The position numbers were made by a program, and so were the translations under genes. The notes under the pieces are model-generated. The model worked only from the letters and a program-made list of their open reading frames with translations. It was not told the origin of the DNA and did no database searches. A DNA stretch of 10,884 bases, from NCBI GenBank assembly GCA_025451425.1, contig JANWKK010000155.1:1-10884 (forward strand), read 5' to 3'. This DNA comes from Gemmatimonadaceae bacterium. GTDB taxonomy: Bacteria; Gemmatimonadota; Gemmatimonadetes; Gemmatimonadales; Gemmatimonadaceae. Shown here piece by piece: positions 1,472-8,711 of the stretch; positions within the stretch are counted from its first letter, which is position 1; the number at the start of each line of letters is the position of its first letter.

Positions 1472-1527
1472 CCTCTCACTGGCTACTCTCTATCCTCAAC
1501 CTCTACCCTCTACCCTCTACCCGCTAC
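1472..1527 (-). repeat. Degenerate heptad array (GTAGAGG type) at the 3' end of the S9 peptidase gene
   Basis: Read on the minus (mRNA) strand from 1527 downward, the sequence divides into eight 7-mers: GTAGCGG, three copies of GTAGAGG, TTGAGGA, TAGAGAG, TAGCCAG, TGAGAGG. The first unit contains the TAG stop of the peptidase gene (1526-1524), so the array starts at the stop codon itself. The early part carries three GGG runs and further GG runs spaced by 4 nt, enough for a G-quadruplex on the RNA strand. I found no inverted second arm nearby, unlike the two other arrays in this window. It is too short-period to be a CRISPR. Confidence 0.7.
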
Positions 1528-3686
1528 GGCGTCACCTTCGTCGTCATTCCCATGTTCGCCGCCGTGAAGGCCCACTCGTCCGCCAGCTCGGCGATCCGTT
1601 TGTCGGTGGGCCGATAGCCATGCGACCCCTGCGTCTCGACCCGAATTATTACGGGCTTCGCGCACGACTGCGCCGCCTGCATCGCCGCGGCGAACTTGAA
1701 TGAGTGGCTCGGCACCACGCGATCGTCATGATCGGCCGTCGTGATCAGCGTCGCGGGATAGCACGCGCTCGACTTCACGTTATGCACAGGCGAAAACTTT
1801 ACTAAGTACTGAAACTGTGTCGAGTCGGCAGCCGACCCGTACTCGGTCGCCCATGCGCCGCCGCCGGTGACCTTGTGATAGCGCAGCATGTCCATCACGC
1901 CGACCGCGGGGAGCGCGACGGCAAACAGCTCCGGCCGTTGCTCCTCTACGGCGCCGACGAGCAGACCCCCATTCGAGCCACCCATGATACCGAGCTTCGC
2001 CGGTGACGAGTAACCCTCCTTCACGAGATACTCGGCGGCCGCGATGAAGTCGTCGAAGACGTTCTGCTTTCGCTCGAACATTCCCGCTTTGTGCCACGCC
2101 TCCCCGTACTCGCTACCGCCGCGCATGCTCGCGGTTGCCCAGATGCCGCCCTGCTCGAGCCACGCGAGGACATCTGGTCGGAAGCTCGGCGTCGTCGCGA
2201 TATCGAAGCCGCCGTATCCGTAAAGCATCGCCGGGTTGCTGCCATCGAGAGCGAGTCCCTTCTTCATCGTCACGAACACCGGCACGCGCGTTCCGTCCTT
2301 CGACGTCGCGAAGACTGCGCGCGTCTCGTATTGGCTCGCGTCGAAGCTGAGCTTCGGGGCTTCGAAGGGCGTGCTCTTCTTGGTTACCGGGTCGTATCGG
2401 AAGACCGTCGACGGATAGAGCGGCGAGGTGAAGCCGTAGAAGATCTCGGGTGTGTCCTCGCGAGTTGAGAGACCTTGCAACGAGCCGATTCCAGGAAGCA
2501 CGAGATCGCCGATCGGCTTCCCATCGAGATCGTACAGCCGAACGTGCGACTTCACGTCCTCGAGGTAGTTGACGGCGATACCCCCTTTGTACATCGCGAT
2601 CTGATCGATTGCGTTCATCTGCTCTGGGATTACCGTGCGCCACGATTCGGGCGACGCGATATCGAACGCGACAACCTTACTCCGCTCCGCGTCGCGGTCT
2701 GTCTGCAAATAAATCGTCGAGGCCACGTTGCCGATCGGCGAGTATTGCGCGTCGCCCTTATCGAAGAGCGGCCGAATCGGTGCGTTGATCTTCGGCTGAT
2801 TCGGATTGCCCAGATCGGCGACGTAAAGTCGATTCTGCTGCTCCGTCCCACGATTCACAAACACGAACAGGTAGCGGCCATCTTCACTCACACCGCCGCC
2901 CACGAACCAATCCGGATGGTCGGGCCGCTCGTAGATCACCACGTCCTGTGACTGCGACGTGCCAATGCGGTGGTAGTAGATCTTCTCGTCCCGGATTGCA
3001 TTCTGCAGCTGCTTGCCTGCTTCGGGCTGCGGGAAACGCGAGTAGTAGAAGCCTTTGCCGTCTTTTGTCCAGCTCATGCCACCGCCCTTGAGCCAGCGCA
3101 CCGTATCGGCTAGCTGCTTTCCCGAGTCCAACTCGCGAACGAGCAGCGTTCGCCAATCCGCGCCGCCTTCCGAGATGCCGTATGCGAGAAACTTCCCATC
3201 AGGCGATGGAGAGAAACCGGCGAGCGCGATCGATCCGTCTGCCGAAAGCGTGTTCGGATCGATGACGAGCTTGGGCGTTCCACCTAACGAGATTCGGCTG
3301 TAGAACACACTCTGTCGCTGAAGTCCCGTGTTGCGCGCGTAGTACAAGCGCCCACCTGCACGGAAGGGCAGCGAGACCTTCGGGTAATTCCACAGCTCCG
3401 TAATGCGATTCTTGAAATGGGCGCGCATGCCGAGCTGCGAGAAGTACTGCTCGGTGACGGCGTTCTCCTGCTTCACCCACTCGGCGACGTCGGTCGAGTT
3501 GAGGTCCTCCATCCATCGATACGGATCGGCAACCTTGGTTCCGAAGAAGTCGGTGACCGTGTCGACCCTTCTTGTCTCCGGATAAGCGAGCCGCTGGCTC
3601 TGTTGGACCTGTGCGCTGGCACCTGACGCCAGCAGCATGGCAACAGCGGCAGCGACGATCGACCGCGCCCGATGAGATTGCGGCAT
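1524..3686 (-). CDS. Secreted prolyl oligopeptidase family serine peptidase (S9A)
   Basis: A 720-residue exported peptidase that would cleave short proline-containing peptides, probably in the periplasm or outside the cell. The signal peptide covers residues 1-25 (ends SGASAQ). The N-terminal part has the family entry DPYRWMEDLNS (54-64) and a beta-propeller with recurring SPDGK/SEDGR-type turns (residues ~80-440). The alpha/beta-hydrolase domain follows (~450-715) with YGYGGF (489-494), GGSNGG around nucleophile Ser571, TADHDDRVVP with catalytic Asp654 and substrate-binding Arg656 (by alignment to porcine enzyme Asp641/Arg643), and GSHGY with catalytic His689. Length matches the family, and nothing essential is missing. 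The start is fixed by AGGGAGGA at 3697-3690, three bases before the ATG. Transcription is divergent from the serine hydrolase at 3845, and the stop codon lies within a heptad repeat array. The molecular role is confident; the natural substrate is unknown. Confidence 0.93.
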   Translation of the reverse strand: MPQSHRARSIVAAAVAMLLASGASAQVQQSQRLAYPETRRVDTVTDFFGTKVADPYRWMEDLNSTDVAEWVKQENAVTEQYFSQLGMRAHFKNRITELWNYPKVSLPFRAGGRLYYARNTGLQRQSVFYSRISLGGTPKLVIDPNTLSADGSIALAGFSPSPDGKFLAYGISEGGADWRTLLVRELDSGKQLADTVRWLKGGGMSWTKDGKGFYYSRFPQPEAGKQLQNAIRDEKIYYHRIGTSQSQDVVIYERPDHPDWFVGGGVSEDGRYLFVFVNRGTEQQNRLYVADLGNPNQPKINAPIRPLFDKGDAQYSPIGNVASTIYLQTDRDAERSKVVAFDIASPESWRTVIPEQMNAIDQIAMYKGGIAVNYLEDVKSHVRLYDLDGKPIGDLVLPGIGSLQGLSTREDTPEIFYGFTSPLYPSTVFRYDPVTKKSTPFEAPKLSFDASQYETRAVFATSKDGTRVPVFVTMKKGLALDGSNPAMLYGYGGFDIATTPSFRPDVLAWLEQGGIWATASMRGGSEYGEAWHKAGMFERKQNVFDDFIAAAEYLVKEGYSSPAKLGIMGGSNGGLLVGAVEEQRPELFAVALPAVGVMDMLRYHKVTGGGAWATEYGSAADSTQFQYLVKFSPVHNVKSSACYPATLITTADHDDRVVPSHSFKFAAAMQAAQSCAKPVIIRVETQGSHGYRPTDKRIAELADEWAFTAANMGMTTKVTP

Positions 3687-3844
3687 TGGTCCTCCCTTTG
3701 TTCTCGCCCCGAGTCTACGCGATCACCTGCCTGTCATCCAGCGGGCAGTGACAGGCCGGCGTCGTACTCCTGTAAGGATTCCGTTGGCTCGCGCCGCGCG
3801 TGTTCCGGCGCTAACATCCCCGCGCCACTCCTCACGAGACTGAC
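3687..3844. promoter_or_regulatory. Divergent intergenic region with a possible shared operator
   Basis: This 158-bp spacer must hold promoters for both the S9 peptidase (minus) and the serine hydrolase (plus). The clearest element is an exact inverted repeat, GCCTGTCA at 3729-3736 and TGACAGGC at 3749-3756, with a 12-nt centre; a competing CTGCC/GGCAG pairing (3727-3731/3744-3748) overlaps it. A second small dyad, TCCT-GTA-AGGA, lies near 3769-3779. Promoter boxes are not convincing: a TAGACT -10-like hexamer occurs on the minus strand near 3714-3719, and TAACAT on the plus strand near 3812-3817, neither with a good -35. A regulator binding the dyad could affect both genes; that is inference. 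Confidence 0.4.
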
Positions 3845-5377
3845 ATGCTCAGCCGTCATTTGGTTCGAACGGGAATTTTGCTTGTGTTGCCATATACCGC
3901 CGTCGCGCAGACGAGACCAGCGGTCGATCCTATCCGCGATCTCGATGCGTACACCGCGAAGGCCGTCGCTGACTGGAAGGTGCCAGGGCTCGCGATCGCC
4001 GTCGTGAAAGACGGCCGCATTGTATTTGCGAAGGGCTACGGTGTGCGAGAGATCGGCAAGCCCGCGCCCGTCGATACACAGACGCTCTTTGCAATCGGCT
4101 CGACCACGAAGGCGATGACGTCCGCCTCGATCGCCATGCTCGTCGACGAAGGCAAGCTCAATTGGGACGACAAGGTCACGAAGATCCTGCCAGGCTTTCA
4201 GCTCGCCGATCCCTACGTTACGCGCGAGCTCACCGTTCGCGACTTGCTCACCCATCGCACCGGCCTCGGGAACGCGGACGTGCTGTGGTATCGCTCAGAC
4301 AACTCCGCGAACGAGGTGATCCGTCGCGTGCGCTTCGCTGAGCCTGTGTATTCCCTGCGCTCGAGCTTCATCTACCAGAACATCATGTATGCGGTCGCTG
4401 GCCAGGTCGTGTCGGTCGAGAGCGGCATGCCCTGGGAGCGATTTGTACGGACGCGCATCTTCGCGCCAATCGGCATGCCTAACACCGTACCGCTGGGTGA
4501 TTCCCTGCGCGGGCGAAGCAACGTCGCGTCTCCGCACTATCGCTTTGGCGACACCGTTCGTGCCGTGAGTAATGCGAGCGTCGACGCCGTCGCGTCAGCG
4601 GGCGCGGTGTGGGCGAGCGTCGCCGACATGGCGCGCTGGATGCGTTTCGTGCTCGACAGCGGCCGCGTCGACGGAAAGCGACTCATGAAGCCGGAAACCT
4701 ACGCGGAGTGGCTCAAGCCGGAGACAATGGTCACGCCGGACGAGTTCTATCCGACCGCTCGCCTAACGAAGCCCCACTGGACGACGTATGCCTTCGGCTG
4801 GTTCCAGGAGGACTACTCCGGGAAGATGGTCGAGTTCCACACCGGGAGCATCGACGGCATGGTCGCGATTATCGGCTTGATCCCGGACGAGCGCCTTGGC
4901 GTGTACGTGCTTGCCAATCTTGATCACGCCGAGCTCCGGCACGCGCTCATGTATCGCGTGTTCGACGCATACCTCGGCAATCCGCCGCGCGATTGGAGCG
5001 CCGATCTACTCAAGCTGTACGGCGGCATGAGCGCCGCGAGCGATTCGGCACGGCGCCGCACCGAAGCGCGTCGTATCCCGAACACGCATCCATCCCTCTC
5101 ACTCGACCAGTACGCCGGCGCGTACGCGGATTCACTCGTCGGTGATGTCGTCGTGTCGTTCGAGAATGGTAAACTCCGGCTCCGCGCCAGCTCGACGCAT
5201 GCGGGAACGCTCGAGCACTGGGAGTACGACACGTTCCGTTTACGCTGGGACAACGCGTGGGAGGGATTCTCGTTCGCGACGTTCACGATCGGCCGCGACG
5301 GAGTACCGAGCCGTCTCGACTTCGAAGGCACCGTTCTTCGTCGGGTCGAACGCCAGCACGCCAGCGCCCAGCGCTGA
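3845..5377 (+). CDS. Secreted serine beta-lactamase-fold hydrolase (class C/esterase-like) with C-terminal DUF3471-like domain
   Basis: A 510-residue exported serine hydrolase of the beta-lactamase / penicillin-binding-protein-like family (Pfam Beta-lactamase). The signal peptide covers residues 1-22 (ends PYTAVAQ). The active-site series is complete: Ser86-x-x-Lys89 in AIGSTTK, Tyr177-x-Asn179 in IYQN, and His332-Thr-Gly334 in EFHTG, which replaces the KTG box of true class C enzymes. The HTG form is usual in esterases, D-aminopeptidases and uncharacterised members rather than resistance enzymes. After the catalytic domain (~30-380), a basic linker (403-412) leads to a ~95-residue all-beta domain (418-503; LDQYAGAYADSLVGDVVVS) like DUF3471. 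The role may be peptide, ester or cell-wall fragment hydrolysis in the periplasm; antibiotic resistance should not be inferred. The Shine-Dalgarno is poor (GAG about 10 nt upstream), but the ATG gives a clean signal peptide. It is followed by two hairpins. Confidence 0.88.
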   Translation: MLSRHLVRTGILLVLPYTAVAQTRPAVDPIRDLDAYTAKAVADWKVPGLAIAVVKDGRIVFAKGYGVREIGKPAPVDTQTLFAIGSTTKAMTSASIAMLVDEGKLNWDDKVTKILPGFQLADPYVTRELTVRDLLTHRTGLGNADVLWYRSDNSANEVIRRVRFAEPVYSLRSSFIYQNIMYAVAGQVVSVESGMPWERFVRTRIFAPIGMPNTVPLGDSLRGRSNVASPHYRFGDTVRAVSNASVDAVASAGAVWASVADMARWMRFVLDSGRVDGKRLMKPETYAEWLKPETMVTPDEFYPTARLTKPHWTTYAFGWFQEDYSGKMVEFHTGSIDGMVAIIGLIPDERLGVYVLANLDHAELRHALMYRVFDAYLGNPPRDWSADLLKLYGGMSAASDSARRRTEARRIPNTHPSLSLDQYAGAYADSLVGDVVVSFENGKLRLRASSTHAGTLEHWEYDTFRLRWDNAWEGFSFATFTIGRDGVPSRLDFEGTVLRRVERQHASAQR

Positions 5378-5386
5378 CAAATAATC

Positions 5387-5420
5387 CACTCGGCGGCATG
5401 TTTGTCCGTGCTGCCGAGTG
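5387..5420 (+). terminator. 14-bp stem hairpin just after the serine hydrolase gene
   Basis: Arms 5387-5400 and 5407-5420 pair over 14 positions (12 Watson-Crick, 2 G-T) with a 6-nt loop (TTTGTC). It begins 10 bp after the TGA at 5377. There is no T-tract after it on the plus strand, so if it ends transcription it is an atypical terminator; it could instead protect the mRNA 3' end. On the minus strand the hairpin would be followed by GATTATTTG, but no minus-strand gene needs ending here. Confidence 0.5.
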
Positions 5421-5432
5421 AACGCGGGTCAA

Positions 5433-5467
5433 GTCGTCCGCTGTCGCCTAACGCAACAGCGGACGAC
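5433..5467. other. Second hairpin, perfect 12-bp stem
   Basis: GTCGTCCGCTGT at 5433-5444 is the exact reverse complement of ACAGCGGACGAC at 5456-5467, with an 11-nt loop (CGCCTAACGCA). It lies 12 bp after the previous hairpin and 79 bp before the next gene. No T-run follows. The tandem pair might act together as a terminator or 3' stabiliser, or the second may belong to the leader or operator of the DUF2199 gene. Structure is directly seen; role is unknown. Confidence 0.5.
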
Positions 5468-5546
5468 ACGCGTTTGCATGTGCGTGTTCGTGCAACTCGA
5501 TCGTCAATGCGTAGAGCATGGCGCGTAACATCGAGCGCCCATCGCT

Positions 5547-6116
5547 ATGCCCGCAACACTCTTTGCGATGACGCATCCCATTCAGACAACGATCGATTTC
5601 CAAGCCTCGGAGCCATTTCGATTCGAGTGCGCGAGCTGCGGCACGCTGCACGATGGCATCCCGAGCTTCGGTTGGGATTTCCCCGCCCAATATCTCGCTG
5701 TACCCGAAGGAGAGCGCGCGCGGCGCGTCGTACTCTCCGATGACGCGTGCGTCATCGACAACGAGTGGTTCTTCATCCGGGGCTGTCTCGAGATTCCAGT
5801 TCATGGCTACCTGGAACCGCTGACCTATTGCGTCTGGCTCTCGCTCAGTCGCGACAGTTTCACGCGTTATTCAGCGAGCTTCGATGACGTGAATCGCCGC
5901 AGCGCTCAATTCTTCGGCTGGCTCTGCACGGCAATTCCGGGCTATCCCGATACACAATTGCTAAAGACCGTGGTGCGCGTTCGCCCGTGGCCCGCGCATC
6001 CGCTGGTGCAGCTCGAGCCAACCGATCATCCACTCGCGATCGAGCAACGTAACGGTGTGAATCCATGGCGCGTGCAGCAGATCGTCGAGCGGATCATGCA
6101 TCCTCGGCATCGATAG
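5547..6116 (+). CDS. DUF2199 family protein
   Basis: A 189-residue soluble protein with no signal peptide, of unknown function. It resembles the DUF2199 family: a single CxxC knuckle near the N-terminus (Cys28-Ala-Ser-Cys31, FECASCGTLHDGIP), P..Y..VPEGER (46-57), DDACVID (65-71), FFIRGCLEIPVHGY (75-88), the WLSLSRDSFTRY stretch (97-108), IPGYPDTQLLK (130-140) and the C-terminal LEPTDHPLAIEQRNG (156-170). All these blocks are in order and length is normal, so the gene looks intact. With only one CxxC, any metal site would need other ligands or dimerisation. The start could be ATG 5547 or ATG 5568 (MTHPIQTT); neither has a strong Shine-Dalgarno, and the family usually begins close to the 'F.C..CG' block, so the shorter form is quite possible. 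Confidence 0.8.
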   Translation: MPATLFAMTHPIQTTIDFQASEPFRFECASCGTLHDGIPSFGWDFPAQYLAVPEGERARRVVLSDDACVIDNEWFFIRGCLEIPVHGYLEPLTYCVWLSLSRDSFTRYSASFDDVNRRSAQFFGWLCTAIPGYPDTQLLKTVVRVRPWPAHPLVQLEPTDHPLAIEQRNGVNPWRVQQIVERIMHPRHR

Positions 6117-6188
6117 CCGTCAGTGAGCGACTGATAAGCTCGACGTGGCTAGTGCCGCGGAGCCCGCTCTGATCGTCCGAGAGATGTC

Positions 6189-7055
6189 ATGAGCACCGAC
6201 GCGCACCAGCCCTCGGGCAACAAGCCCCCGCAGTTCGATGTCGCCGAGTCCAGCACGGCGGCGATCTCGCGGCGTTCCGGTGCGGCTGAGATGGCGTGCA
6301 AAACCTGCTGCCGTCCCCTCGCCAGCACGTACTCCCAAGTCAATACTGCCGTCATTTGCGAATCCTGTCGCGCATTGCTCGACAGACCCAGCGGGACACG
6401 ATTCACTCGCGGCCTGCATGCGACCGGCCTTGGGCTGCTCGCCGCCATCGCTGGATCGCTGCTCTATTTCGCTGTCGCCGCGATCACCGGTCGAGAGTTC
6501 GGTCTCGTCGCGATCGCAGTTGGTTTCATGGTTGGAAAGGCGGTGCGAAGAGGCTCGCGTGGCCGCGGTGGCTGGGCGTATCAGTCGCTCGCCATCGCCC
6601 TGACGTACCTCGCGATCGTCTCCACCTACATCCCGCTCATCGCGAAGGAATTTCAGAAGAACGCCCAGGCGGTAGCACGCGCTCGACCCAGCGTGCCCAC
6701 GATCGACACCATTACGATCTCGGCTCGTGCTCCGGTCGCTGGACTTGCGCCCGATTCGAGCACCACGGCGAGAACCGATGGCGGCTTCTCCGTTATGCAA
6801 GCCGGCTCACCTGCCGCGACGTCACCCGCGCGATCGAAGCATCTCGGTGCGGGCACGATGTTGTTAGGCGCCGGTTCCCTTGTGTTGCTCGCGGCGATGA
6901 TACCGATCTTCGCCGGCTTCTCGAATCTCATCCTCCTGCTCATCATCGGCATCGCGGTGTTCGCGGCGTGGATACTCAACCGTCGCATCGCTCTGCCCGT
7001 AATGGGACCGTACCGCGTCGATGACGGCGCTCAGAGCGCCGGCGCCGTTGTCTGA
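6189..7055 (+). CDS. Zinc-ribbon polytopic membrane protein, conserved hypothetical
   Basis: A 288-residue integral membrane protein of unknown function. A disordered N-terminus (1-35) precedes a treble-clef/zinc-ribbon-like motif with Cys37-x2-Cys40 and Cys57-x2-Cys60 (CKTC...VICESC). Then come hydrophobic segments at about 76-99, 104-118 (ITGREFGLVAIAVGFMVGKAV) and 131-152. A polar, Ser/Ala/Thr-rich loop (160-220) follows, and two further helices at about 222-242 and 244-263. The 'EFGLVAIAVGFMVGKAVR-GSRGRGGW-YQ' core is one I recognise from uncharacterised proteins of Acidobacteria and Gemmatimonadota, in which a LIM-like CxxC pair precedes the membrane domain. ATG 6189 has GAGAG about 5 nt upstream; Met35 is a less likely internal start. 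The zinc binding and topology are inferences from sequence pattern. Confidence 0.75.
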   Translation: MSTDAHQPSGNKPPQFDVAESSTAAISRRSGAAEMACKTCCRPLASTYSQVNTAVICESCRALLDRPSGTRFTRGLHATGLGLLAAIAGSLLYFAVAAITGREFGLVAIAVGFMVGKAVRRGSRGRGGWAYQSLAIALTYLAIVSTYIPLIAKEFQKNAQAVARARPSVPTIDTITISARAPVAGLAPDSSTTARTDGGFSVMQAGSPAATSPARSKHLGAGTMLLGAGSLVLLAAMIPIFAGFSNLILLLIIGIAVFAAWILNRRIALPVMGPYRVDDGAQSAGAVV

Positions 7056-7295
7056 ACGCATTGGCTCACGTTTCGGACTCGAGTGTCTGCAGTCGCTGCC
7101 CTGCTCGCTGCGGCAATCCCGTCGGTTGGGTTCCCTTCGCCGGTGCGAGCTGGGCCGTAGTCACCTCGCCTCCGGCGCGTGCCGATGTGCGTGCCGTGGG
7201 GTATTATATGAGTCTCGCCGGAGCGCTCACCCTCCTTGCCGCGCTCTCTCGCGTGCCGGTCTAGCTGCACCCGCATCGGACGTGGAGTAAAGCTA
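7056..7295 (+). other. 240-bp gap without a confident gene; AT-rich promoter-like island
   Basis: No frame here gives a convincing protein. Two fragments are worth noting. A GTG-started 25-codon frame (7083-7160) reads like a signal peptide (MSAVAALLAAAIPSVGF...) but stops at TAG. The next frame, open from TTG 7061 to TAG 7264, ends in a hydrophobic stretch (VGYYMSLAGALTLLAAL). Together they resemble a small exported or membrane protein split by a frameshift, though chance is quite possible in GC-rich DNA. TATTAT at 7202-7207 is an isolated AT-rich hexamer that could be the -10 for the gene at 7296, without a recognisable -35. Confidence 0.3.
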
Positions 7296-7571
7296 ATGCC
7301 ACTTTTCGAGCTCATCGACCGCCTCTTCATCCCGCTCGCCGCCGCGATCGTTCTGATCCTTGGCGCGTCGGCGTATCTCGTCAGGCGCTCCGTCAAGATC
7401 GACGCGTGGCCGCTGCGCACGGACAATGACGTTCGGGGTCAGGCGGCAGCGCGCGCGGCACTCGCCCAGGCGCGTCGGATACTCGGTCGCGCCGCGTGGC
7501 GCGCACTCTTGCTCGTGTCTCTTCTCTTCGCGGGCGTTGCGCTGCTGAACGATCTGGCGGCGATGCGGTGA
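7296..7571 (+). CDS. Small two-helix membrane protein, hypothetical
   Basis: A 91-residue protein that I do not recognise. It has two hydrophobic segments, about residues 9-29 (RLFIPLAAAIVLILGASAYL) and 68-88 (WRALLLVSLLFAGVALL), joined by a polar loop rich in Ala and Arg (QAAARAALAQARRILGR, 49-64) that looks helical and amphipathic. This suggests an inner-membrane hairpin protein. The ATG at 7296 has GGAG about 9 nt upstream; a longer frame from 7236 adds an unlikely Cys/Arg-rich N-terminus. The stop at 7571 is followed after 4 bp by a heptad repeat array and then an intrinsic terminator. Codon bias looks like that of neighbouring genes, which supports it being real. Confidence 0.65.
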   Translation: MPLFELIDRLFIPLAAAIVLILGASAYLVRRSVKIDAWPLRTDNDVRGQAAARAALAQARRILGRAAWRALLLVSLLFAGVALLNDLAAMR

Positions 7572-7575
7572 GGCC

Positions 7576-7610
7576 GGTGTTTGGTTCCTGGTGATTGGTT
7601 GTTGGTTGCT
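7576..7610 (+). repeat. Heptad array, five GGT-led 7-mers (left arm)
   Basis: Five consecutive 7-mers run without a gap: GGTGTTT, GGTTCCT, GGTGATT, GGTTGTT, GGTTGCT. The array starts 4 bp after the stop of the small membrane protein gene, with the GG-bearing strand in the mRNA sense. A GG every 7 nt allows a two-layer G-quadruplex. It pairs imperfectly with the inverted array at 7651-7678, enclosing the terminator at 7618-7642. Confidence 0.75.
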
Positions 7611-7617
7611 AATACGT

Positions 7618-7642
7618 AGGCCGACGAGAGACTCGTCGGCCT
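7618..7642 (+). terminator. Rho-independent terminator
   Basis: A perfect 11-bp stem (7618-7628 with 7632-7642; core GGCCGACGAG / CTCGTCGGCC) closes an AGA triloop and is followed by TCTTAATT on the plus strand. This is a classic intrinsic terminator for the gene ending at 7571. It sits exactly between the two inverted heptad arrays. Confidence 0.85.
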
Positions 7643-7650
7643 TCTTAATT

Positions 7651-7678
7651 CACCAATCACCAATCACCAACCACGAAT
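7651..7678 (-). repeat. Inverted heptad array (right arm)
   Basis: Four 7-mers on the plus strand, CACCAAT, CACCAAT, CACCAAC, CACGAAT, are the inverted equivalent of the GGTGATT/GGTTGTT units at 7576-7610. Aligning the reverse complement with the left arm gives a 10-base exact match (GGTGATTGGT) within a longer imperfect one. The whole 7576-7678 segment can therefore fold as a long stem around the terminator hairpin. Confidence 0.7.
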
Positions 7679-7732
7679 CCACGCATGGGCTATTTCTTGC
7701 CTCATGTGCTCGAAAAGCGGCGGAGCGTAGCG

Positions 7733-8593
7733 ATGAAGTGGACACCCGGTGGGGAAAGCTCGGACATCGAAGATCGACGTGGCGAAGGCGGTGGCTTTAT
7801 TCCTGGCGGTCGCGCGGGAATGGGAATCGGTGGCACCGTTGTGTTGCTCGTCCTCAGCTTGATCTTCGGTCGCAATCTTGTGACCGGCGGCACAACAAGC
7901 GACAACACTGGCGCGCCGGCGACGTCGAATGGCGAAGTCGCGAGCACACCGGCCGAGGACCGGCTCGTCCAGTTCGTCTCGTTCGTGCTCGACGACGTTC
8001 AGAATACGTGGCGCTCGATTCTCGCCGACCGACACGTCCCCTATCAGGACGCGAAGCTCGTGCTCTTCCGCGACGCGACGCAATCCGACTGTGGAACGGC
8101 CCAATCGACGATGGGGCCGTTCTACTGTCCGCTCGATCAGAAGGTGTACATCGATCTCGGATTCTATGACGAGTTGCAGCGCCGCTTCGGCGCGCCTGGC
8201 GATTTCGCCGAAGCATACGTCCTGGCTCACGAGCTCGGACATCACGTTCAGCATTTGCTCGGCATCGACGAACAGGCGCGGCGTCTCCAGCGCGAAAATC
8301 CAAGCACGGCAAATGCGGTCTCGGTGCGACTCGAGTTACAGGCGGATTGCTTTGCTGGCATTTGGGGCCACAGCACCGAGCAGCGACGCCTGCTCCAGCA
8401 GGGAGACATCGAGGAGGGCCTGAACGCCGCTGCGGCGGTTGGCGACGATCGAATCCAGCGCGCAACGACGGGTCACGTCAACGCGGAAACGTTCACTCAC
8501 GGATCTTCGGCGCAACGTACCGCGTGGTTCAAACGCGGCCTCACGACGGGCCAGATCGAAGCGTGCGATACGTTTGGAGATCGAGGCCCGTGA
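7733..8593 (+). CDS. ypfJ: Neutral zinc metallopeptidase, YpfJ family (Zn_peptidase)
   Basis: A 286-residue membrane-anchored metallopeptidase-like protein, the same length as E. coli YpfJ (about 287). A Gly-rich cytoplasmic N-terminus (KWTPGG...RRGEGGGFIPGG) precedes one membrane helix (31-46) and a variable linker (50-75). The periplasmic domain then carries the zinc motif HELGHH (His167, Glu168, His171) in AYVLAHELGHHVQHLLG and a downstream ELQADCFAG (201-209), with Glu201 the likely third ligand. Cys120 and Cys132 (SDC...FYC) and Cys206/Cys278 could form disulfides. All catalytic positions are present; the biological substrate of this family is not established. The start was moved to ATG 7733 because it gives the conserved family N-terminus and has GGAG 8 nt upstream; the 16 extra codons upstream look non-coding. 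The gene is bracketed by two repeat palindromes. Confidence 0.92.
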   Translation: MKWTPGGESSDIEDRRGEGGGFIPGGRAGMGIGGTVVLLVLSLIFGRNLVTGGTTSDNTGAPATSNGEVASTPAEDRLVQFVSFVLDDVQNTWRSILADRHVPYQDAKLVLFRDATQSDCGTAQSTMGPFYCPLDQKVYIDLGFYDELQRRFGAPGDFAEAYVLAHELGHHVQHLLGIDEQARRLQRENPSTANAVSVRLELQADCFAGIWGHSTEQRRLLQQGDIEEGLNAAAAVGDDRIQRATTGHVNAETFTHGSSAQRTAWFKRGLTTGQIEACDTFGDRGP

Positions 8594-8607
8594 GGCGCCA
8601 GCTGCCA

Positions 8608-8667
8608 AGGGCTAGGTGCTAGGTGTTAGGTGCTAGAACGGACCGCTAGCACCTAACACTTAGCACC
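8608..8667. repeat. Heptad-built palindrome (GGTGCTA type), 22-bp stem
   Basis: The left arm is made of 7-mers AGGGCTA, GGTGCTA, GGTGTTA, GGTGCTA (8608-8635). The right arm, 8646-8667, is its inverted copy: 8615-8636 pairs with 8646-8667 over 22 positions with a single G-T mismatch, around a 9-nt loop (AACGGACCG). It begins 14 bp after the stop of the metallopeptidase gene, again with the G-rich strand in the mRNA sense. No T-run follows, so it is not a standard intrinsic terminator, though a stem this stable could stop or protect RNA. Confidence 0.8.
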
Positions 8668-8682: not shown

Positions 8683-8711
8683 TTGTCAGAAGCCGTCCGA
8701 CGCACGATACT
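8683..8711 (+). promoter_or_regulatory. Sigma-70-like promoter for the regulatory/TonB-plug gene
   Basis: TTGTCA at 8683-8688 (5 of 6 to the -35 consensus) is followed by exactly 17 bp and GATACT at 8706-8711 (4 of 6 to the -10 consensus). Transcription would start near 8718, leaving a short leader of about 25 nt with GGAG at 8734-8737 before ATG 8743. This also argues against any translation start at 8683, which lies inside the -35 box. Confidence 0.6.

Follow-up and report, generated by a model that had tools for sequence, protein, structure and literature searches.

Heptanucleotide arrays beside stop codons in Gemmatimonadaceae: candidate dispersed stem-loops at gene 3′ ends

Of all long simple repeats, heptanucleotides are reported to be the most abundant class in most of the bacterial genomes surveyed (Mrazek 2007, as quoted in the available text of PMC4679880). 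Among the literature found, the nearest precedent for the arrays treated here is the GGGNATC-type family of Xanthomonas and Nostoc. According to the available parts of that work (Rehm et al. 2015, PMC4692102), intergenic heptads GGGAATC or GGGGA(C/T)T are spread genome-wide in variable copy number and have no known function; they lie mostly <50 bp from a stop codon on the sense strand, or from the start of an open reading frame (ORF) on the antisense strand, and are rare between divergent genes. Convergent paired sites are reported in Xanthomonas (70 in Xcc and 75 in Xac); in Nostoc pairs are few and the non-coding strand is favoured. The same parts deal with one unit type carrying G3/G4 tracts, with four units preferred, argue from quadruplexes, and mention heptanucleotide repeats in Calothrix. 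The present analysis concerns a stretch of 10,884 nucleotides from an uncultured soil bacterium of the Gemmatimonadaceae (contig JANWKK010000155.1 of assembly GCA_025451425.1; hereafter the window), in which an original prediction, made from the letters alone, had noticed three degenerate 7-bp tandem arrays directly after genes. The reading to which slight preference is given is that these are three copies, one of them one-armed, of stem-loops dispersed over intergenic 3′ ends in one branch of the Gemmatimonadaceae, where they may act at transcript ends. Like the heptads in the available text on Xanthomonas and Nostoc, they are intergenic, have a 7-nt unit and follow the same rule of strand and position in the two closest relatives sampled (G016 and G015); like those of Xanthomonas, they form convergent inverted pairs (36/36 in the relatives; arrays 2 and 3 in the window). 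The design itself was thus already known. The present elements differ in the coexistence of several unit superfamilies within a single genome, in the lack of four G3 tracts in most arrays and in the GC core hairpin enclosed by some pairs.

The three predicted arrays are real, and period 7 is the sole period with arrays in the window (periods 3–14 scanned). A run scan at a score ≥12 returned three period-7 runs (1500–1527, 7650–7674 and 8611–8636) and none at periods 3–6 or 8–14, the chance expectation being a mean of 0.003 runs of this kind per window (300 second-order Markov shuffles). Identity at period 7 is 33/49 in array 1, 19/28 in array 2 and 18/22 in array 3, and never exceeds 0.52 at other periods within 3–12. 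The distances of 0, 4 and 14 bp from stop codon to array were also given correctly, the stops lying at 1524–1526 (minus strand), 7571 and 8593; the distance is 0 for array 1 because the stop codon of the prolyl oligopeptidase gene falls within the array. Coordinates are collected in Table 1.

A feature absent from the original prediction is that arrays 2 and 3 each serve as the left arm of an inverted repeat. For array 2, the two arms (7577–7599/7652–7674) are 83% complementary over 23 nt, the left one being degenerate and below the run-scan threshold and the right one above it; those of array 3 (8615–8636/8646–8667) are 95% complementary over 22 nt, and the variant unit GGTGTTA is mirrored in the right arm. 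Predicted folding energies are −50.7 kcal/mol for the array 2 spacer (z −5.7) and −48.2 kcal/mol for the array 3 spacer (z −6.2); array 1 folds no better than its shuffles (z +1.2).

The genome scan that had been proposed as a check was run on stretches of relatives, not on the window's own genome. A match to the Zn-metallopeptidase lying between the two hairpins of the window was found in 92 of the 179 genomes of the family (that of G002, the genome of L006), the closest being G016 (90%) and G015 (87%); G016 has a syntenic orthologue for each of the 9 window genes. The samples comprised 1.14 Mb of G016, 0.30 Mb of G015, 0.33 Mb of G100 and 1.31 Mb from 76 loci assigned by their titles to other groups. 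The stretches were selected on contig number or length, apart from L152, which was taken because it contains the orthologous region; the list of matches to the unit pattern GGTGNTN was known before some of them were chosen. Genes of relatives were called by a hexamer-score script, with rough starts and firmer stops. Period 14 was set aside as a multiple of 7.

G016 contains 57 intergenic period-7 arrays and at most 5 at every other period from 4 to 15, and spacers simulated by a third-order Markov model gave none; the counts are 17 in G015 (at most 1 at other periods) and 9 in G100. Most period-7 arrays are intergenic (57/67, 17/19 and 9/11, respectively). The 76 other-group loci hold 6 intergenic period-7 arrays, without excess over period 12 (8) or 15 (7), and G075, chosen for lacking GGTGNTN matches, has 16, 22 and 24 intergenic arrays at periods 7, 8 and 9. 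That the arrays stem from chance or faulty assembly is hardly credible: their shortness, and nothing further, would favour it, the shuffles speak against it, and the independent arrays of G014, G015, G016 and G100 already refute it.

Position relative to genes was counted for the 69 of 74 intergenic arrays of G016 and G015 (to which counts refer below unless a genome is named) with both flanking genes called. They lie closer to gene ends than under random placement (p 4e-8), at densities per kb of 1.11 between convergent, ~0.45 between tandem and 0.15 between divergent genes. The nearest gene end is a stop for 45/69, at a median distance of 3 bp, and G is on the sense strand in 36 of these 45 (p 6.6e-5; 26/30 in G016, significant by itself); the other 24 are start-proximal, at a median of 15 bp, and 19 of them carry G on the antisense strand. 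Among the 41 arrays ≤25 bp from a stop, 8 extend across the stop codon, 3 begin inside it and 5 begin right after it. The period-7 excess, stop proximity and G-on-sense bias that had been foreseen thus appear in G016 and in G016 and G015 combined.

The agreement of this rule with that in the available text of PMC4692102 would favour elements that act as G-quadruplexes at the level of DNA or mRNA, the proposal made there for Xanthomonas and Nostoc heptads. Two-tetrad G2 motifs are indeed found in 62/74 arrays and in 3/3 window arrays. However, G2 quadruplexes are generally weak, and four G3 tracts occur in only 25/74 arrays and in none of the three in the window, so that this explanation appears improbable.

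The arrangement of the arrays is more telling. An inverted partner lies within 150 bp of about half of them (36/74), and the order is 5′-G-array…C-array-3′ in all 36; among random array-free intergenic segments a partner was found for 5/204 in G016 (from a smaller sample of 755 kb), 7/75 in G015 and 0/43 in G100. A motif count with four unit families over G016, G015 and G100 gave 48 G..C pairs, no C..G pair and none in coding sequence. Since an inverted repeat obeying the G..C rule reads alike on both strands, both strand biases of the paired arrays follow from it. The original view of GG-led repeats at 3′ ends therefore keeps its G-on-sense bias after stops and has to be widened, as partnered arrays are inverted repeats with G left and C right; it was one-sided in that the C arrays beside start codons are the other arm of such repeats. 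Partners are local: of the 57 G016 arrays, 29 are matched by the right flank of the same array and none by its left flank, and comparisons with right flanks belonging to other arrays gave 86/456 matches. In the more distant G075 partnered arrays are split into 6 G..C and 8 C..G (2 have no partner), and the rule is thus not general to the family. The G075 stretches (L222–L241), with arrays of period 7, 8 and 9 and no G..C rule, represent a different kind of repeat-rich genome.

These observations bear on a functionless origin, according to which 7-nt replication slippage is seeded by hairpins and the arrays survive at 3′ ends as the least harmful place. Such a by-product is conceivable, if doubtful. 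It accords with the slippage proposed for heptads by Mrazek (as quoted in the available text of PMC4692102 and PMC4679880), with runs of near-identical units inside arrays and, as judged by eye, with the lack of any like array common to G015 and G016 at the spacers compared. It also accords with the hairpins of array-free G016 3′ spacers, which lean G-left too (39 vs 17 of 67), so that arrays may exaggerate a general tendency. However, slippage alone predicts neither the G..C order in 36/36 partnered arrays, nor local matching of arms, nor a few unit superfamilies at dozens of loci. As to origin, it is compatible with dispersed stem-loops, the two not being exclusive.

Units in G016 belong mostly to about three superfamilies (TTGGTnn, GAGGGnn and TAGGGnn), each found at many loci, which makes copying between loci likely; G015 has more kinds of unit. 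Mirrored arms were also compared, in the register of best fit, and no verdict on copying is drawn from this. The claim of a shared design without shared sequence is borne out insofar as several units obey one design, and it overstated the diversity, given the three or so superfamilies of G016. In searches by unit pattern, where matches overlap and one array yields several, GGTGNTN was found in 28/179 family genomes, with 169 matches in G015, 102 in G016, 72 in G014 and 41 in G100; the pattern read backwards, as a control, also matches (G016 68, G100 39, G005 36, G015 20, G014 0). It was found, with one match each, in 2/49 genomes reached from other loci (50 of 80 loci used). GAGGGTA arrays occur in 7/395 genomes of the phylum, with 128 overlapping matches in G016. 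The backward-read control of GAGGGTA matches 165 times in G124 and 61 times in G136, two genomes that seem, from these matches, to carry GATGGGA-type heptad arrays. Unit abundance differs between lineages.

Orthologous spacers, compared by eye, indicate how long the elements last. All three array-bearing spacers of the window have a G016 orthologue with the same heptad type: GAGGGTA/GGGCAGA heptads with both arms after the prolyl oligopeptidase gene (the place of array 1), GGTGTTA heptads after the Zn-peptidase gene and, upstream of the latter, CACCAATC opposite a left array of another unit type. In G015 the first spacer holds a TTATCAG-type inverted repeat and the other two plain hairpins, and the few spacers comparable between G015 and G016 have an array in one genome and none of like kind in the other. 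Heptad types are thus kept between the window and G016 but not between G015 and G016, which suggests that elements can persist through the separation of closely related species and be replaced later; this reading rests on three spacers. For the window, a single recent transposition remains the less favoured view, as originally argued, since its spacers and their G016 orthologues agree in unit type (n = 3, by eye). In G015 (L244), the TTATCAG inverted repeat after the prolyl oligopeptidase gene encloses a second palindrome containing CATCCTGAGCGAAGCGAAGGAT, a sequence with 4 copies in the G016 stretches, one in the G015 stretches L182–L201 and none in G100 or the 76 other-group loci.

Spread and turnover raise the question of mobile palindromes carrying the heptads, similar to repetitive extragenic palindromes (REP) or miniature inverted-repeat transposable elements (MITE) and dispersed by transposition. 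The REP and REPIN sequences, in the available text of PMC2817692, PMC3116915 and PMC3733652, are likewise dispersed extragenic palindromes, with hypothesised roles in termination and mRNA stabilisation; they differ in that the arms here are tandem heptads. In favour of transposition, the same superfamilies, including some TTGGTnn elements with a similar GC core hairpin, recur at many loci, and an element in one species faces a different sequence in the orthologous spacer of the other. The candidate agents are unsupported: profile searches of 16 genomes detected the Y1 transposase (PF01797) in one (G005), and not in G014, G015, G016 or G100, and reverse transcriptase (PF00078) in two, G016 and the heptad-free G012. 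Neither fixed ends nor target duplications were noticed, though no systematic search for them was made. Mobile palindromes are therefore regarded as rather unlikely, while being compatible with, and not exclusive of, dispersed stem-loops. Equally unlikely appears a gene-end element defined by geometry, in which some process peculiar to this branch of the family would build and renew transcript-end hairpins from any heptad available; only the 7-nt period and the G-left/C-right order would stay constant, while units would drift, be replaced and vary among species and loci.

Evidence on folding comes from the 3′ spacers, 28/43 of which fold with z < −3 when they bear an array, against 8/60 sampled from 308 array-free ones. 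A GC core hairpin occurs in 6/43 array spacers and 0/308 array-free spacers, a comparison that was not blind, the pattern having been written after the array spacers had been read; it is enclosed in 10 of the 48 counted pairs and shared by some TTGGTnn elements. In the window, a hairpin between the arms of array 2 (7618–7642) has the longest stem among four terminator-like sites and qualifies weakly as an intrinsic terminator, defined as a GC-rich hairpin followed by a T run. As shuffled sequences contain 6.6 such sites on average, i.e. more than the four observed, the terminator scan by itself proves nothing. Right arms are adjoined by candidate promoter motifs, which places the hairpins between one stop and the possible promoter of the next gene. 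The motif TTCTTGCC, possibly a promoter element of the Zn-peptidase gene, precedes the start of this gene in relatives too, the pattern having matched 5 of 9 sequences (window, L081, L085, L086 and L091), and is visible by eye in G016, as is, at the corresponding place, a sequence similar to the promoter-like pair beyond array 3. The number of promoter-like sites in the window (3 vs 2.3 in shuffles) is weak evidence by itself.

In the stem-loop reading, a complete element would consist of a G-rich heptad array at or just after a stop codon, a loop and a C-rich array ending near the next gene or its promoter, and some elements would add a GC-rich core hairpin between the arms. Slippage by 7 nt at a time may make the arms longer and more uniform, and the elements would spread to many loci by some route. 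Their retention at 3′ ends would be explained by a long RNA stem that, whether or not an inner hairpin is present, could act as a two-way transcript end or as a 3′-end shield between adjacent transcription units. Such a function would fit the position, orientation and predicted folding.

Several facts weigh against this reading, most heavily the lack of a partner for over half of the arrays and of a T-run hairpin in two of the three window elements. Array 1 has no inverted partner anywhere in the window and forms no hairpin, the heptad hairpin 8615–8667 has no T run, and a T-rich tail is present on the inner hairpin of array 2 only, leaving the other two window elements without a T-run hairpin. 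Over half of the G016 and G015 arrays (38/74) have no partner at the threshold used, as do 7/9 in G100, and the left and right G016 arrays upstream of the Zn-peptidase gene would, by eye, not pair. The strand bias of G016 and of the combined set is not significant in G015 alone (10/15, p 0.3) or in the 8 arrays of G100 alone (3/4), where placement is not significant either (p 0.23). Orientation counts are not independent, since arrays within a family have common ancestry and a pair can contribute both of its arms. Short-loop GC hairpins are hardly commoner in array spacers (8/43) than in array-free ones (41/308), and the transposase and reverse transcriptase searches tied no mobility gene to the elements.

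Table 1. Arrays, hairpins, motifs and neighbouring genes in the window
Feature	Position	Strand	Basis or remark
Array 1, GTAGAGG heptads	1472–1527	−	strict core 1500–1527; degenerate on to 1472
Array 2 left (G-rich) arm, GGTGATT/GGTTGTT heptads	7576–7610	+	4 bp past stop
Array 2 right (C-rich) arm, TCACCAA heptads	7650–7679	+	run scan, inverted-repeat scan
Array 3 left (G-rich) arm, GGTGCTA/GGTGTTA heptads	8608–8636	+	strict core 8611–8636; 14 bp past stop
Array 3 right (C-rich) arm	8646–8667	+	95% complementary to 8615–8636
GC-rich hairpin, weak T-rich tail, terminator-like	7618–7642	+	between arms of array 2
Separate inverted repeat, 14-nt arms, 8-nt loop	1392–1427	not assigned	same spacer as array 1
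TTCTTGCC motif	7694–7701	+	pattern scan; just beyond array 2 right arm
Promoter-like pair TTGTCA-17-GATACT	8683–8711	+	promoter scan; just past array 3 right arm
Prolyl oligopeptidase (S9) gene	1524–3686	−	protein-family match; upstream of array 1
91-aa ORF	7296–7571	+	no Pfam match; stop precedes array 2
Zn-metallopeptidase (PF04228) gene	7685–8593	+	protein-family match; between the two hairpins

Among the neighbouring genes, the 91-aa ORF before array 2 is conserved (81% in G016, 84% in G015). The Zn-peptidase shares 92% identity with a protein recorded under 'Gemmatimonadaceae bacterium', and its conservation begins at or near residue 17 (position 7733). The window contains no Rfam match at gathering score. 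Region 7056–7295 resembles the 3′ end of an intact ORF of ~350 aa with an HEMGH motif, presumably site-2-protease-like, at the corresponding place in G015; G016 keeps a short remnant only, and the comparison suggests gene decay. Two further ideas on the stop codons were not retained. TAG stops are enriched beside arrays in G016 (13/27 vs 234/889, p 0.016) but not when G015 is added (15/39 vs 292/1096, p 0.14). A 'three-frame stop trap' is not claimed either: all three frames are closed by 34/74 arrays on the G strand versus 11/74 on the C strand, and G-rich composition alone favours TAG and TGA.

Known units are scarcely represented in the samples scanned. Exact tandem pairs of GGGAATC, GGGGATT and GGGGACT are absent from the window and the G016 and G015 samples, and the Xanthomonas unit GGGAATC from all samples; tandem GGGGATT and GGGGACT, the heptad reported in Nostoc, are present in the G100 sample only (stretches L202–L221). 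The short tandem repeats (STRR) of heterocystous cyanobacteria, to which the original prediction had alluded, are likewise tandem heptanucleotides, in a different phylum; the likeness considered here is that of repeat length. The TAACTGA intergenic tandem heptamers of Beggiatoaceae (available text of PMC4679880) occupy many intergenic loci as here, but are mostly just upstream of start codons, have a single unit and, in the genome described, one indirect repeat only. The elements of four heptanucleotides in Geobacter metallireducens (consensus GGACCGG, 49 copies; available text of PMC2700814) are dispersed as well but, unlike the present arrays, lie within as well as between genes. Neither TAACTGA nor GGACCGG occurs in the samples scanned. 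Among the matches listed from open-licence literature, there is no prior description of heptad elements in Gemmatimonadota; matches to the unit sequences concern, by title, aptamers and other unrelated subjects, and no heptamer terms were found in PMC4060949.

The abundance of heptads in bacteria has no agreed reason. Here, different units within one genome obey one rule of orientation and position, which means that the period and the strand asymmetry are separable from any particular sequence and from G3 quadruplexes. That a similar rule holds in Xanthomonas and, partly, in Nostoc suggests a shared cause.

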